From: a virus
DNA length: 20,507 nucleotides
IMG/VR virus record: IMGVR_UViG_3300031841_003833
Span: 1-20,507 of that record
Direction: 5' to 3' (one strand)
Shown here: positions 11,545-20,452 of the stretch, piece by piece
Numbering within the stretch: position 1 is the first letter of the stretch
Layout of the letters: each line of letters begins with the position of its first letter
The notes under the pieces: generated by a model
Told to the model about the DNA's origin: nothing
Databases searched by the model: none
Seen by the model: the letters and a program-made list of their open reading frames with translations, nothing else
Position numbers and translations under genes: made by a program

Positions 11545-12171
11545 TTATTTAGAAATTTTGCTTTTGATAATTCTTTTAGCAACCCTTCTGGTTACTTCTG
11601 CGATGTAAGCGTCAAAATTATCATCTTCCATTACATCCATTTTGGCTGCTTCATCGTCCATTTCCATTTCTCCGCCAAGATCAACTTCTTCTTCGTCTTC
11701 TTCAGCACCCATTGACTCATCATCCATGCCACCCATATCAGCTTCGACGGCACCGTCTTCAACAGCAACCTCTACGCCTGTTTCTTGCTCGATTGCACCT
11801 GCAATTGCATCAACAAGTCTTTTGACCATGGCTTCATCTGCTCCACCTTCGTCAGCAGGAGCATCCATTGGCTCATCATCAACCTCTGCGTCCATTTCCA
11901 CGTCCATTTCTTCTTCAAGATCTTCTTCATCTTTCTTACGAGGCTTTCCCATTCCCTCTTCTACTTCTTCTTCATCTTTCTTACGAGGCTTTCCCATTCC
12001 CTCTTCTACTTCTTCTTCATCTTTCTTACGAGGCTTTCCCATTCCCTCTTCTACTTCTTCTTCGTTTACCTCGAATCTGTCAAGGTAACTCTCAGCGAGA
12101 TTATCCATGTTTGCGAGTTTCATGAATCGTCGGATCGTTCCCTCGTTGAGTAATGTTTTCTTGTTGCTCAT
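11545..12171 (-). CDS. Acidic repeat protein, probably structural
   Basis: The protein has 208 residues and is extremely acidic. The N-terminus KKTLLNEGTIRRFMKLANMD is a recognisable opening of uncharacterised marine-phage proteins, and it is followed by three identical 15-residue repeats EEEVEEGMGKPRKKD, a long Asp/Glu/Met/Gly-rich stretch with one helix (MVKRLVDAIAGAIEQETGVE), and a basic C-terminal helix (YIAEVTRRVAKRIIKSKISK). Basic ends around an acidic middle suggest a scaffold- or core-like role, which suits its place upstream of a ClpP-like protease, but nothing proves it. An AGGAG site precedes the ATG. Confidence 0.78.
   Translation of the reverse strand: MSNKKTLLNEGTIRRFMKLANMDNLAESYLDRFEVNEEEVEEGMGKPRKKDEEEVEEGMGKPRKKDEEEVEEGMGKPRKKDEEDLEEEMDVEMDAEVDDEPMDAPADEGGADEAMVKRLVDAIAGAIEQETGVEVAVEDGAVEADMGGMDDESMGAEEDEEEVDLGGEMEMDDEAAKMDVMEDDNFDAYIAEVTRRVAKRIIKSKISK
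11921..12063 (-). repeat. 45-bp perfect tandem repeat, about 3.2 copies, inside a coding region
   Basis: Units beginning at 11926, 11971 and 12016 are identical over 45 bases, and matching sequence extends from 11921 to 12063. Each unit encodes one EEEVEEGMGKPRKKD block in frame. Perfect identity at synonymous positions indicates recent expansion by slippage or recombination. Confidence 0.95.
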
Positions 12172-14945: not shown

Positions 14946-17900
14946 TTACCCCAAAAGTCTAAAGTTTCTGCTGATTGATCGGGTGCTAAAGCCCCATTGC
15001 TCATCATATTCCAACCTACCCATATAAGGGCGATTGACAGCTATTTTGTCTTTCTTTGAACTTACACCCCAACATTTTATTGTTGTCAGAACATTGTTTG
15101 AATCAATCACCTCCAATATATAATACTCTTTGCCATTTTTGGTTCTTTTGATGTTTACTTTTCTAGGAATAAACCATGCAGCACCCAAATCGACATCAAA
15201 TTCTGAGATTGGTGGGATGTGCAGTTCAGATAGTCGGTTCATCACGTCATCATCAATCACCAAGCTTATGGGAAACGCTCCTGTCAAACTGGATAAGTGC
15301 TCGATCTTTTCGTAGTTAGTAAAGTCGCCCTCATCTTTATACTTTTCTATGTTCTCCATTAAGTTCTTCTCTTTCCGAGGGCGCATGACAGCAACTGCAC
15401 TCCAGAAATGCTTTTCTCCTGAGAATCTGTCGTCCATCAAGCATTTCAAAGCACCAGCCCTGCATAACACATCAAGCGCTTTTTTATTCAGCTTAGAGTA
15501 TACCATCTCCTCGTTGAACAAGAAGTCTTCAATTTTATCAAAGGGGCGATTTTCTAAAATCTGTTCCATCGCAGCATCACCAAGACCCTTGATAGAAGTA
15601 AGCGGTTGAATTAGTGTTTTGCCGTCCTCACTAATTTCCCACACCTGACCAGACCTATTCACATCTAGTGCTGCAACTTTGAATCCAAATTGCTTGGCAA
15701 TCGCAATAGCTTTTTCTTTTCTTGCCTCTGGCTCTTTGTCCAAAAATGCAGCCATCCATTCTGCTGGATAATAATTGAGCAGCCAAGCACACTGATAAGA
15801 CAGAACTGAATACGAGACGGCGTGTGATTTGTTAAAACCATACCCTGAGAAATACTCGAAAGTCTGCCAAAGCTCTTGTGCCTTTCCTTTAGTTAGCCCT
15901 TTTTTGACACAACCTGAAACAAACTTCTTGTAAATCTTATCTTTCTTTTGCTGCGTTTTGCCTGTTCCTTTTTTAGTCAACAGCTTCCGCAAAGCATTGC
16001 CCTCGTCCAATGATAAGCCATCACCCAGCTTGTGTGCGAGAAGTGCGATCTGTTCTTGAAAAATCAAGAATCCATATGTTTCTTCTGTGACTTCCTTCAC
16101 AATATCGTTTACATATTCAACTTCTTCAGGCTTCCTCATTGCCTTGACATACATTTTGTCTACTTTAGCACTGAGTGGTCCCGGACGATAAATACTGGTA
16201 ATAGCAGCAATATCAATGATGCTCTTTGGCTTTGCCTTCTTACAAAAGTCCTGCGCTCCGCCTTCCGTGAACTGAAAGATACCAGCCCACTTGCCTTTAT
16301 GAAAGACGTTTTTGTACACCTTCTGGTCGTTCAAGTCAATCGTCTCAGGGTGGAGCTTCGTATCATAGTATTCTTTGACATCATCAAACGTCGGCTTCTC
16401 GATGCCATGATGTCTTTTTAGAATATGTCTAATCGCACCCTCCATCATTCTCAATGAAGCAAGTCCCAAGATATCAAACTTAATAAAGCCCATTGGCTCC
16501 AGATGTCTTACATTTTGCCCTTCGGACCATGGTGTCTGTACAACGCCACCACTGTTTATAAGTGGCATATACTTATCCAAATCTTCTCCGATGACGACAC
16601 CACCAGCATGACGACTAATGGACCTTGGCTGTCCAAAAATAACATCAATATGACTAGCGATATGAGGATATTTGTTCAAGAAATTCTTCAGTGACTCCGA
16701 ATATTCCTTTAGTTCCTCAAAGGTTGGCGTATAAACACCAGCCTTGATGCCATGCGCCTTCTTTGCAAGGGGTGTTGCTTCTTTGAGCATCTTTGATGTA
16801 ACCGGATTGACCTCGGTAAAGGGCACACCGTAAAACTTTGAGATGTCCTTGACTAGGGAGCGCAACTGTAGCGTGTTAAAATTTGAAATGGGCACTACCG
16901 TGTTCTGACCCCAGTCATCAATAAGCATCTCCTTCAATTCCATGGGGTCCGATACGTCATAATCAATATCAGGATAGTCAGTTTGATCTTTGGTCATAAA
17001 CCTCTCAAACTGTAACTTATACTTAATAGGGTCGATCTGAGTAATGCCCAAAGCGTATGCAACAAGAGACCCAGCAGCAGAGCCACGCCCTGAGCCGACA
17101 AGCTGACAGTCAGTCGCTTTATCTGCAATACTTTTCATTGTCAGAAAATACTCGCTGAATCCCCTCTTGTTGATTACATCCATCTCCAAAGCGAGCCTAG
17201 ATGAATACTCCTTGTTCATCAAGCCAAGCTTTACAAGACCATCCTCGCTGAACTTTTGTAGGGCTTCCGATGCTGACTGCTTATCCGGCACAACAAAGCT
17301 TGGCAAGCGAACCGTATTGTCGGGCATGAACTTTTCAATTCTATTATGTGCGATTTCATGAGTCCGAAGAATAGACTCTTCAATCATTTTGTCGTTGTAA
17401 GATGCACCCACCTTTTCTGAATAATATTTATACGCCTCCCACATCTCGTCGCCATTCTTTGGATAGAGTTCATAACCAATATCCTCCACATTTTCTGGCA
17501 ATTCAGACGACAAGTAATCGGGACGTGTCTTGCCACCTAGCCAGCCGAGGCGTTTATAAAGCTCTCTATCCCTCCACGCCTCTTTAGTTGGATAGTGACT
17601 ATCAGCCGTTGAAATAAGCTGGATGCCGTATTCGTGATGCAATTGAATGATGTATTGGTTTAATTCGTGCTGTTCTGGCGCACTGTTCCACTGTAACTCC
17701 CCATACCATCTGTCTCCAAAGATGTCAATCATTTTTTCTGTTGTTCGGCGCATGCTTTGTATCACAGCGTCTTTGCCGTTCTCTCTATTATCCCAGTAAT
17801 TACCAGCATAAATACCGCCGAGGCAAGCAGATGCAGCGATGACCCCCTCGTTATATTGACTGAGCAAGTCATAATCCATTCGAGGATATCGGTAAAAGTT

Positions 17901-18356
17901 GTCATTTTTATAAGAATCAGATACCATCTTGAAGATGTTATTGAGACCGGTTTGGTTCTGAGCCAAAAGAATAAGGTGGTTTCTCTTGTTCAATTTACTT
18001 TTCTTGCTCTTAGACGCACCCTCATTTTCAATAACGAGCCCACTGGAGGAGTCGGACTTCTTCTTGGAGCCCTTTTCCTTGTCCATCTCTTTTCTCCAGT
18101 CTTTGACTGAAGGGATAAAATAAGCCTCGACCCCAAAGATTGGCTTGAAGTTTTTACCCTCCTCCATCATCTTCTTTGCGTGTGCAACCTGATAGCTAAG
18201 ACCATTCATATTCCCATGATCGGTTAATGCTAGGGCGTCCATTCCGTTTTCAAATGCACTATCCATGTGCTCACCGGGGAATCCGAGTCCGTCAAAAAAA
18301 GAACCCGCAACTGAGTGTGCGTGGAGACCTACAAATGGAATATCACTCTTCTTCAA
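14946..18356 (-). CDS. dnaE: DNA polymerase III alpha subunit (DnaE-type, C-family replicase)
   Basis: At 1136 residues it is the usual DnaE length, with no intein or PolC-type exonuclease insert. The N-terminal PHP domain keeps its metal ligands: GLHAHS (His12, His14), LTDHGN (Asp46, His47), GVEAYF (Glu77), RNHLIL (His127), ACLGG and STADSHYP (Asp252, His254). The palm follows: GSGRGSAAGSLVAYALGITQ (421-440), PDIDYD (catalytic Asp463, Asp465) and GFIKFDILGLASLRMM (Asp628). Fingers and helix-hairpin-helix segments (SIKGLGDAAMEQIL) and an OB-like C-terminus are present. It is the phage replicase; the intact PHP site suggests proofreading by this domain. The start is a TTG at 18356 with AGGAG eight bases upstream, overlapping the nucleotidyltransferase end by 14 bases. 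Confidence 0.98.
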   Translation of the reverse strand: MKKSDIPFVGLHAHSVAGSFFDGLGFPGEHMDSAFENGMDALALTDHGNMNGLSYQVAHAKKMMEEGKNFKPIFGVEAYFIPSVKDWRKEMDKEKGSKKKSDSSSGLVIENEGASKSKKSKLNKRNHLILLAQNQTGLNNIFKMVSDSYKNDNFYRYPRMDYDLLSQYNEGVIAASACLGGIYAGNYWDNRENGKDAVIQSMRRTTEKMIDIFGDRWYGELQWNSAPEQHELNQYIIQLHHEYGIQLISTADSHYPTKEAWRDRELYKRLGWLGGKTRPDYLSSELPENVEDIGYELYPKNGDEMWEAYKYYSEKVGASYNDKMIEESILRTHEIAHNRIEKFMPDNTVRLPSFVVPDKQSASEALQKFSEDGLVKLGLMNKEYSSRLALEMDVINKRGFSEYFLTMKSIADKATDCQLVGSGRGSAAGSLVAYALGITQIDPIKYKLQFERFMTKDQTDYPDIDYDVSDPMELKEMLIDDWGQNTVVPISNFNTLQLRSLVKDISKFYGVPFTEVNPVTSKMLKEATPLAKKAHGIKAGVYTPTFEELKEYSESLKNFLNKYPHIASHIDVIFGQPRSISRHAGGVVIGEDLDKYMPLINSGGVVQTPWSEGQNVRHLEPMGFIKFDILGLASLRMMEGAIRHILKRHHGIEKPTFDDVKEYYDTKLHPETIDLNDQKVYKNVFHKGKWAGIFQFTEGGAQDFCKKAKPKSIIDIAAITSIYRPGPLSAKVDKMYVKAMRKPEEVEYVNDIVKEVTEETYGFLIFQEQIALLAHKLGDGLSLDEGNALRKLLTKKGTGKTQQKKDKIYKKFVSGCVKKGLTKGKAQELWQTFEYFSGYGFNKSHAVSYSVLSYQCAWLLNYYPAEWMAAFLDKEPEARKEKAIAIAKQFGFKVAALDVNRSGQVWEISEDGKTLIQPLTSIKGLGDAAMEQILENRPFDKIEDFLFNEEMVYSKLNKKALDVLCRAGALKCLMDDRFSGEKHFWSAVAVMRPRKEKNLMENIEKYKDEGDFTNYEKIEHLSSLTGAFPISLVIDDDVMNRLSELHIPPISEFDVDLGAAWFIPRKVNIKRTKNGKEYYILEVIDSNNVLTTIKCWGVSSKKDKIAVNRPYMGRLEYDEQWGFSTRSISRNFRLLG

Positions 18357-19218
18357 TACTTTCTCCTATCTTGTTCCACTGTCTGCTAGAAAGAATCAGC
18401 TTGTCCGGTTTTTCTAATTCTCTATCAGACCCTAAATAATTCTTTAGACCCTGCCAAGAGTCTATGTTGTCATACCGTGGTAGTTCAACTACTTTTGCTT
18501 CAGCCATTTTAGCAGATCCAAAAACTGTGTCAAGATTAAAGTGAACGGCGCTCCATCTTTTTTCAAAAGGTAGCATGGCTTCATCTCCAAACTTGGCACC
18601 AGCCGGTCTATATCCTGTACCCTGCTCTGTTATGACTCGTTTGTATTCTTTATATTCTTCACTGTCAAAAGTGAAACCCAAATATTCACCGTCTGCCACA
18701 GTCTTTCCGTCGTTAGATAAAAAGAATGACTTATCGCTTGAAATGTCCGGTCTGTGCTCTCTGAGCATAGAGGGGTCATATACGCCATATGGAAAAGCCG
18801 TATAATATCTAGAAGGTACAACCCATTTGCTTATTTTATTGCTGACGTGGTATGAGGTTAGCGCACCATAAAGCACACTAAAAGCTAGACAATCTCTTTT
18901 TCCAAGATCTTTTGGATGTATAGGAACATAGTATATGGGTATTTTTCTTCTTGATTCGGATGGATATTTGTTTAGCCTTCCCAAAGAAACAGGGTCAATT
19001 ATATATTCTCCTAGCCTGCTTCTAATCAAAGGTTGCATGTCGTCATTGCAAACAAGCCAAATAGTTTCGCATCCAGCCCAAGCACACTCCAGCACCGCTC
19101 TTTCTACTGCTAGGTAGTTTGCGCCTATTGGTTGCAAACAGTCGTGCCATGGAAAATTAAAGTCAAGCTTTTTTCCTGCTACTGGAACAATTCCTGCTAA
19201 ATGGAATGGGGATCTTAT
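18343..19218 (-). CDS. Putative nucleotidyltransferase, apparent AUA start
   Basis: The frame is open well upstream of its first standard start (TTG at 19137). That upstream part is clearly protein-like: SPFHLAGIVPVAGKKLDFNF followed by PWHDCL. The strong ribosome-binding site GGGAGG lies six bases before an ATA at 19218, overlapping the previous stop, and no ATG, GTG or TTG occurs between. I therefore annotate an AUA start and 291 residues. The sequence looks like a sugar-phosphate nucleotidyltransferase fold: a short N-terminal strand, NYLAVERAVLECAWAGCETI followed by WLVCNDD, then MQPLIRSRLGE, and GKRDCLAFSVLYGAL. The usual G-x-G-T-R-L glycine loop is not evident. A later domain (about residues 150-290) is unassigned. 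The fold call is moderate. Confidence 0.72.
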   Translation of the reverse strand: MRSPFHLAGIVPVAGKKLDFNFPWHDCLQPIGANYLAVERAVLECAWAGCETIWLVCNDDMQPLIRSRLGEYIIDPVSLGRLNKYPSESRRKIPIYYVPIHPKDLGKRDCLAFSVLYGALTSYHVSNKISKWVVPSRYYTAFPYGVYDPSMLREHRPDISSDKSFFLSNDGKTVADGEYLGFTFDSEEYKEYKRVITEQGTGYRPAGAKFGDEAMLPFEKRWSAVHFNLDTVFGSAKMAEAKVVELPRYDNIDSWQGLKNYLGSDRELEKPDKLILSSRQWNKIGESIEEE

Positions 19219-19652
19219 TGCCCACCTCCCATCATAGATGCGCCGCCTTCTGCGCCGCCTCCCATTTGTTCCATCATTTTTTCAAGCATTTTCAAGATGA
19301 TCATCATAATCAACATCTTCATAATCTTTTCAAGGTCCATTTCATTTCCCTGACCCATCTGACCCATTTCAGATCCACCACCTATTTGAAGGCTTTGCTC
19401 TGAACTCATATTCTGAAATGAACTAACTTCGTTTGTTATGTTAATGTTGATTGAGTTAGAGTCTCCACCACCTTCTGGTGAGCCTCCCATCTCAACTCCC
19501 TTGTTATTTTCACTACCTACTGCTGCTCCTCCGCTAGACGGAGTAACTCGTTGAGTAGACACTGGTGCTGCGGATGCTCCACCGCTACCACCAGAACCTA
19601 TTGATCCTGCGCTAGACACGGTTCTGCCCCTCCTTGAAGATGATACCATCAT
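19215..19652 (-). CDS. Low-complexity Gly/Ser/Met-rich protein
   Basis: The 145-residue protein is unlike its neighbours. Residues 1-65 are Ser/Gly/Ala-rich and probably disordered; a polar beta-like patch follows (SININITNEVSSF), then Gly/Met, and a hydrophobic methionine-rich helix at about 105-130 (MDLEKIMKMLIMMIILKMLE, KMMEQM; nine Met in 26 residues). It ends with GGGAEGGASMMGGGQ. The hydrophobic helix is long enough to insert in a membrane or to oligomerise as an amphipathic helix. I do not recognise it. It overlaps the upstream gene by 4 bases (ATGA) and its stop overlaps the AUA-start gene. Confidence 0.75.
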   Translation of the reverse strand: MMVSSSRRGRTVSSAGSIGSGGSGGASAAPVSTQRVTPSSGGAAVGSENNKGVEMGGSPEGGGDSNSININITNEVSSFQNMSSEQSLQIGGGSEMGQMGQGNEMDLEKIMKMLIMMIILKMLEKMMEQMGGGAEGGASMMGGGQ

Positions 19653-20452
19653 GCACCACCTCCAATATAATTATGGAGCTTGTGGATATATTTATTGATG
19701 CTAACTTGCAAATCTTGATTCTGGAAGGATAAAAAATCAGTGTCTTTGTATGCGTCCATGTGAATCTTTTTTATTTGCCTTCTGTCAGACTCCAGCTTTA
19801 TGCTGTAGTATTTATATTTTTCCGGGTCGCTAACGTCTCTGCCATTTCTTGGACCTTTGATTCCATATTGTTTCATTATGTCCTTTGTTTTATACAGTGT
19901 CATAAGAGTAGAGTATGAGTGATCTTTTATTTGTTCATCTGTAAGATACGATATTGCAACTAAGTCTTTATAATCATGATCTCCATCGATCCGAGGCGAT
20001 TTATAAAAAACTATCTCATTAACAAAATCATCTCCGGTTTCAATCGTGTGGTATTCATGGGTCATACCAGCACGAACATTTATCCAATCTAAAATCATTT
20101 TTTTTGGATTTTTTTCAGTCAATTTTGGTAATGGTAAACCTTCAACGTTCTCATCGTCAAAAACAAAAACTTTCTCACACTCAACTTCTACCATTCTTTC
20201 TCTTTTTGTGTAGACTTTTAGCTTTTTTTCATCTTCTAGTATCCTAATTGAAGTGACCTTATCTGAAAATGGGATCTTTCCAGCCATTGAAAGCAGAAAA
20301 ACTAAATGGTTCCAATCTTTTGTTTCCTTTTGTTCAAATATTTCAGGAAGTGAGACCTTATTGAGAATCAGAGAGCAATCGTTTTTAGAAGCAAAAAGAA
20401 CCGACTCTAAAGAAGAGCCTATTACAATTCTTTGCATGTTTATCGTCTTCAT
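19649..20452 (-). CDS. Unknown protein, 267 residues
   Basis: The N-terminus (QRIVIGSSLESVLFASKNDC, then SLILNK) resembles the first strand, glycine turn and helix of a nucleotide-binding Rossmann-like domain, but the GxGxxG motif is incomplete (IGSSLES). Basic/aromatic segments follow (KKLKVYTKRERMVEVE), a DWINVRAGMTHEYHTIE segment and KSPRIDGDHDYKDLVAISYL. The C-terminal part is charged and helical. An FAD- or NAD-type fold is possible but unproven. The ATG at 20452 overlaps the upstream stop (ATGA); a stop codon lies immediately upstream in frame. Confidence 0.7.
   Translation of the reverse strand: MKTINMQRIVIGSSLESVLFASKNDCSLILNKVSLPEIFEQKETKDWNHLVFLLSMAGKIPFSDKVTSIRILEDEKKLKVYTKRERMVEVECEKVFVFDDENVEGLPLPKLTEKNPKKMILDWINVRAGMTHEYHTIETGDDFVNEIVFYKSPRIDGDHDYKDLVAISYLTDEQIKDHSYSTLMTLYKTKDIMKQYGIKGPRNGRDVSDPEKYKYYSIKLESDRRQIKKIHMDAYKDTDFLSFQNQDLQVSINKYIHKLHNYIGGGA

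Follow-up and report, generated by a model that had tools for sequence, protein, structure and literature searches.

A gene on the minus strand of a marine phage genome very probably encodes a divergent nucleotidyltransferase of the RmlA/GalU fold, translation of which would start at an AUA codon at position 19218. The sequence analysed, hereafter the window, is a virus record of 20,507 bp. The open frame that contains the gene extends from 19281 to 18343 and has no ATG, GTG or TTG until the TTG at 19137. The details on which the original prediction of an apparent AUA start had been built, namely 27 codons ahead of this TTG, ATA at 19218, a GGGAGG motif six bases away and an upstream stop at 19284-19282, were each verified in the window sequence. 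On the minus strand GGGAGG lies at 19230-19225, with a spacing of 6 nt between GGAGG and the AUA, and the ATA (19218-19216) overlaps by two bases the TAA stop codon (19217-19215) of an upstream Gly/Met-rich gene, hereafter the Met-rich gene, forming an A-UAA junction (Table 1).

Table 1. Features of the junction and of the adjoining genes, in window coordinates.
Feature	Position	Strand	Evidence or remark
Upstream in-frame stop, TGA	19282..19284	-	Bounds the open frame; translation of the frame
Nucleotidyltransferase-like gene, 291 codons	18343..19218	-	AUA 19218 to TGA 18345-18343; 80 homologues; fold; purifying selection over the whole gene
Probable AUA initiation codon	19216..19218	-	Invariant in the window and L001-L005; ATG column in L077/L079; selection switch
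Extended Shine-Dalgarno, GGAGGTG	19223..19229	-	Duplex strength; invariant Gly wobble bases
TTG, first standard start in frame (codon 28 counted from the ATA), rejected as start	19135..19137	-	Weak Shine-Dalgarno duplex; loss of N-terminus
Upstream Gly/Met-rich gene (ATG at 19652; 145 aa)	19215..19652	-	Conserved in L001-L005
Downstream DNA polymerase III alpha-type gene (PHP, C-family)	14946..18356	-	TTG start, Shine-Dalgarno AGGAG

The DNA polymerase III alpha-type gene, the TTG start of which overlaps the end of the nucleotidyltransferase-like gene, was detected downstream in 74 of the 80 loci that make up the homologue set. Two adjacent genes hence carry weak starts, the AUA being followed by the polymerase TTG at 18356 with its AGGAG Shine-Dalgarno (SD) sequence. 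A 267 aa protein (19649-20452, minus strand) without a match in Pfam, PHROGs or NCBIfam is encoded upstream of the nucleotidyltransferase-like gene in 77 of the 80 loci and is a conserved partner of it. Elsewhere in the window, an acidic protein of 208 aa (11545-12171, minus strand) contains three tandem copies of EEVEEGMGKPRKKD; the corresponding stop-to-stop frame of locus L085 is 15 residues, or about one unit, shorter (197 against 212), and repeat number therefore varies.

The homologues were drawn from IMG/VR, and 75 of the 80 loci fall outside the window's sub-clade. Each of these 75 starts with ATG, GTG or TTG, 17-29 residues ahead of an invariant DFNFPWHD motif. The ATA of the window lies 18 residues before this motif; L077 and L079 carry an ATG in exactly that alignment column, and in L006, sister to the sub-clade, an ATG precedes the motif by 17 residues. 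Across 39 aligned sequences the residues L7, G9, P12, D19, N21, F22, P23, W24, H25 and D26 are invariant, and residues 5-27 (FHLAGIVPVAGKKLDFNFPWHDC) hold the densest run of invariant positions in the family. The gene thus encodes a conserved N-terminus upstream of any standard start codon. Of 1243 open reading frames scanned in 84 related sequences, a conserved N-terminus ahead of every standard start was seen on the coding strand only in this gene and its direct orthologues; no other AUA or otherwise odd start was found on the coding strands of the phage family, the remaining flagged frames being antisense to known genes.

The same triplet is present in the five nearest contigs, L001-L005, all of which read GGAGGTGGGnnATAAGATC, and a pattern scan tolerating other third bases returned these five and no more. 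The proteins of L001 and L002 are identical to that of the window, whilst those of L003, L004 and L005 have 85% identity to it, such that the ATA has been kept in six sequences of two diverged lineages (the window with L001 and L002, and L003-L005), which form one monophyletic clade with 100% SH-aLRT support. Comparison of the window with L004 shows changes in 20 of the first 27 codons, synonymous in 16 and non-synonymous in 4; hence the ATA has persisted through change at most neighbouring wobble bases. A single-base change, A to G, could have turned the ATA into ATG and the stop into TGA, and has not been fixed in the clade. By itself, however, conservation of the ATA is weak evidence, as only two lineages are involved and the last two bases are also tied to the TAA stop.

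The pattern of substitution between the two lineages changes at the ATA. In the 21 codons upstream of it, read in the same frame, dN (0.137-0.159) approximately equals dS (0.147-0.156). Codons 2-27 show a dN of 0.087 with saturation at synonymous sites, and over the 264 codons from 28 to 291 dN is around 0.1 and dS is 1.4-1.7. Because of this switch in selection, coding in the nucleotidyltransferase frame can be placed as beginning at, or very near, the ATA.

The extended SD sequence GGAGGTG is both strong and properly placed, at 6 nt from the ATA: its predicted duplex with the 3' end of the 16S rRNA, at -15.3 kcal/mol, ranks with the strongest found for starts in the window. It is spelt by three glycine codons of the Met-rich gene (GGAGGTGGG), the wobble bases of which do not differ between the six sequences; of seven nearby upstream Gly/Ala codons, six vary at the wobble position (Fisher's exact p about 0.03). 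GGAGGT could nonetheless partly reflect the glycine-rich coding of the upstream gene. A hairpin sequestering the SD sequence was considered as a further element and dropped, since that predicted in the window is no better than those of shuffled sequences (z 0.83) and the relatives form different pairings.

Taken together, initiation at the AUA is strongly supported by comparative sequence evidence. The original prediction had offered as its alternative a -1 frameshift from the Met-rich gene, making the protein a fusion product with no separate start. The frame is indeed open for 21 codons upstream of the ATA, in the -1 register relative to the Met-rich frame, and the P-site codons AAA (19280) and GGA (19262 and 19229) could re-pair after slippage. 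However, at no position in the overlap could both P- and A-site tRNAs re-pair in -1, CAA-UAA itself being unable to do so, and a frame translated as part of a fusion is difficult to reconcile with the lack of coding constraint ahead of the ATA. The homologues, most of which have no Met-rich gene, use stand-alone starts, and the fixed glycine wobble bases spell an SD sequence at the spacing of a start codon. With neither a slippery site nor upstream constraint to be found, we consider frameshifting very improbable.

Translation from the TTG at 19137, or from another internal codon, is less probable still. It is true that no standard start codon precedes this TTG in the frame of the window, and that L002 carries a GTG at codon 13, but the SD duplex available to the TTG amounts to just -1.5 kcal/mol, and the purifying selection on codons 2-27 argues against any internal start. 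In an AlphaFold model of the protein (mean pLDDT 83, pTM 0.85), residues 7-12 form the first beta-strand. As codons 5-27 encode this strand and the most conserved motif of the family, DFNFPWHD, both of which would be deleted, the TTG cannot be the start; none of the 80 loci has a start at its position. The alignment proposed with the original prediction gave conservation ahead of residue 28 and starts clustering near the ATA.

The absence of a standard start from the right place might also be taken as a sign that the start has been lost and the gene is silent or in decay, but the low dN relative to dS over 264 codons, and the intact frames in all six sequences, make this similarly hard to credit. 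Least probable of all is an error of sequencing or assembly concealing a true ATG: a single G to A change would suffice, and the upstream gene provides no check, since TGA and TAA are both stops, but the ATA recurs in five other contigs from separate assemblies, the record names of which indicate five different metagenomes, and three of which encode proteins of only 85% identity. A one-off error is thereby excluded, and the conserved arrangement is real biology. Hence the original reading of the start withstood both the comparison with homologues and the check for error, and is supported by the homologue starts as well as by the five contigs sharing the ATA.

The description of the product as nucleotidyltransferase-like stands with regard to fold, but gained no support from Pfam, PHROGs or NCBIfam, in none of which the protein has a match. 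The best PDB matches of the AlphaFold model in a Foldseek search are RmlA and UDP-glucose pyrophosphorylases (E about 1e-7, probability 1.00), with a TM score of about 0.5 and about 10% identity. In these enzymes the first strand and the loop following it bind the nucleotide. The signature GxGTRLxPLTxxxPK is absent from the phage protein, the N-terminus of which reads AGIVPVAG-LDFNFPWHD; a search of PDB sequences returned chance matches only, and tblastn against a collection of phage GenBank records found no match for either this protein or the upstream 267 aa protein. Two matches were found in a genome collection, both on short contigs of marine metagenome-assembled genomes; as these contigs are probably viral, they give no host assignment. 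The predicted fold is therefore that of the sugar-1-phosphate nucleotidyltransferases RmlA and GalU, although, unlike those enzymes, the phage protein belongs to no matched family and has diverged to about a tenth of identical residues.

Initiation at the AUA would involve fMet-tRNA pairing with two positions of the codon and mismatched at the third codon base, for which the strong, well-spaced SD sequence may compensate. An overlapping stop and start with an SD sequence nearby (A-UAA, with the SD at 19229-19223) is the layout of a translationally coupled pair, and the Met-rich and nucleotidyltransferase-like genes may be so coupled: ribosomes terminating at the UAA, one base downstream, could rebind and assist the AUA start. 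The expected N-terminal peptide would be (M)RSPFHLAGIVPVAGK. Output is likely to be lower than from an AUG, and the low, IF3-sensitive expression originally suggested may follow by analogy with the published cases. Against an AUA start stands the observation that in E. coli an AUAA junction lacking an SD sequence gave no downstream product (PMC9955659); as that junction was inactive, function of the AUA would rest on the SD. Reassignment of AUA to methionine was rejected, as internal AUA codons align with Ile, Val or Leu in homologues, and a search for tRNA genes in the window found none, so that the window offers no hint of a phage-encoded initiator tRNA bearing another anticodon.

The AUA may owe its origin to the mobility of the gene preceding it. 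Relatives of the Met-rich gene are also found in L010, L011, L026, L030, L038 and L071, and the copy in the ATA clade conflicts with the nucleotidyltransferase tree; L006, sister to this clade, lacks the gene. It is 80-84% identical to the copies in L026, L071 and L038, whereas the nucleotidyltransferases are only about 58-60% identical, a mismatch on account of which the gene has probably been transferred between lineages. In those three loci the Met-rich gene is followed by a cysteine-synthase-like gene (assigned by eye), and the nucleotidyltransferase starts at an ATG of its own. The GGQ-stop terminus of the Met-rich protein is encoded as CAATAA in L038 and as CAATAG in L029 and L015, where another gene comes next; the ATA triplet therefore probably arrived with the Met-rich gene and replaced a lost ATG.

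Several arrangements of these genes were observed in the relatives. In L026 and L038 (2132-2998 in both), L071, L029, L015 and L016, the cysteine-synthase-like gene (PLP; by eye) lies between the Met-rich and nucleotidyltransferase genes and overlaps the ATG of the latter. A truncated Met-rich N-terminus is apparently fused in frame to the cysteine-synthase-like protein in L010 (1877-2998, an open reading frame of 373 aa), L011 and L030. L002 matches the window almost perfectly over the nucleotidyltransferase and the greater part of the Met-rich gene, but upstream of about 1990 in L002 the similarity drops, the next gene sharing only 31% identity; this marks a recombination joint close to where the Met-rich gene begins.

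We give roughly even odds to the start having been captured by recombination: a mobile Met-rich gene ending in CAA-TAA would have joined upstream of the nucleotidyltransferase gene and supplied the AUA, the original ATG being lost, so that the start lies inside the neighbour's stop (A-UAA) and the SD sequence derives from the neighbour's glycine codons, both since kept by selection. A somewhat smaller chance attaches to a point mutation in an ATGA overlap present in the ancestor, one step converting both ATG to ATA and TGA to TAA. Such an origin accords with the ATGA overlap of L006 at about the position of the junction, and with the sequence of L077, ATGAGTTCTGGA in place of the window's ATAAGATCCCCA. 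However, the GGQ-stop terminus exists before a different gene, and the greater similarity of the Met-rich genes to those of L026 and L038 than of the nucleotidyltransferases (about 58%) points to a joint. This alternative concerns only the origin of the AUA and not its use.

Capture by recombination would suggest how, through the exchange of modules, a gene can persist once its ATG is gone. In practice, gene callers limited to ATG, GTG and TTG would shorten the protein by 27 residues, at the cost of its first strand and best-conserved motif. In the open-access literature, no report of an AUA start in a tailed phage was found, and the present case is a comparatively well-supported natural example in a phage of a rare start already known in bacteria, as judged from sequence, with an unusual A-UAA overlap. 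It also represents a stop-start junction of the AUAA type that occurs in nature together with an SD sequence; a junction of this type failed without one in E. coli.

The infC gene of E. coli starts with AUU and is regulated by IF3. In Streptomyces, sigR has another IF3-regulated rare start, GTC (PMC5472188). The phage gene resembles both in having a conserved rare start that may restrain expression, but differs in not being a known regulator. Closer parallels are found in Staphylococcus aureus, where infC, ccpN and citZ use AUA starts, infC and ccpN having an extended SD sequence, and where AUA reporters gave about 10% of the output of AUG, with ccpN reaching up to 30% in rich medium (PMC13009471). 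The phage gene shares with infC and ccpN the AUA and the strong extended SD sequence, and the unusual start of ccpN is likewise kept between species (PMC13009471). The S. aureus genes, however, are cellular and were identified by ribosome profiling, two also by reporters, whereas the phage gene is known from its sequence; overlap of the AUA with an upstream stop is a feature of the phage gene and not of theirs. In this respect it is more similar to AUGA and UAAUG junctions, such as that between the coat and lysis genes of the RNA phage GA, in which start and stop overlap with an SD sequence upstream; in E. coli such a sequence draws released ribosomes to an overlapping start that lies on the same side of the stop as the sequence itself (PMC9955659). 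The AUAA junction examined in that work lacked an SD sequence, whereas the phage junction combines AUAA with a strong one.
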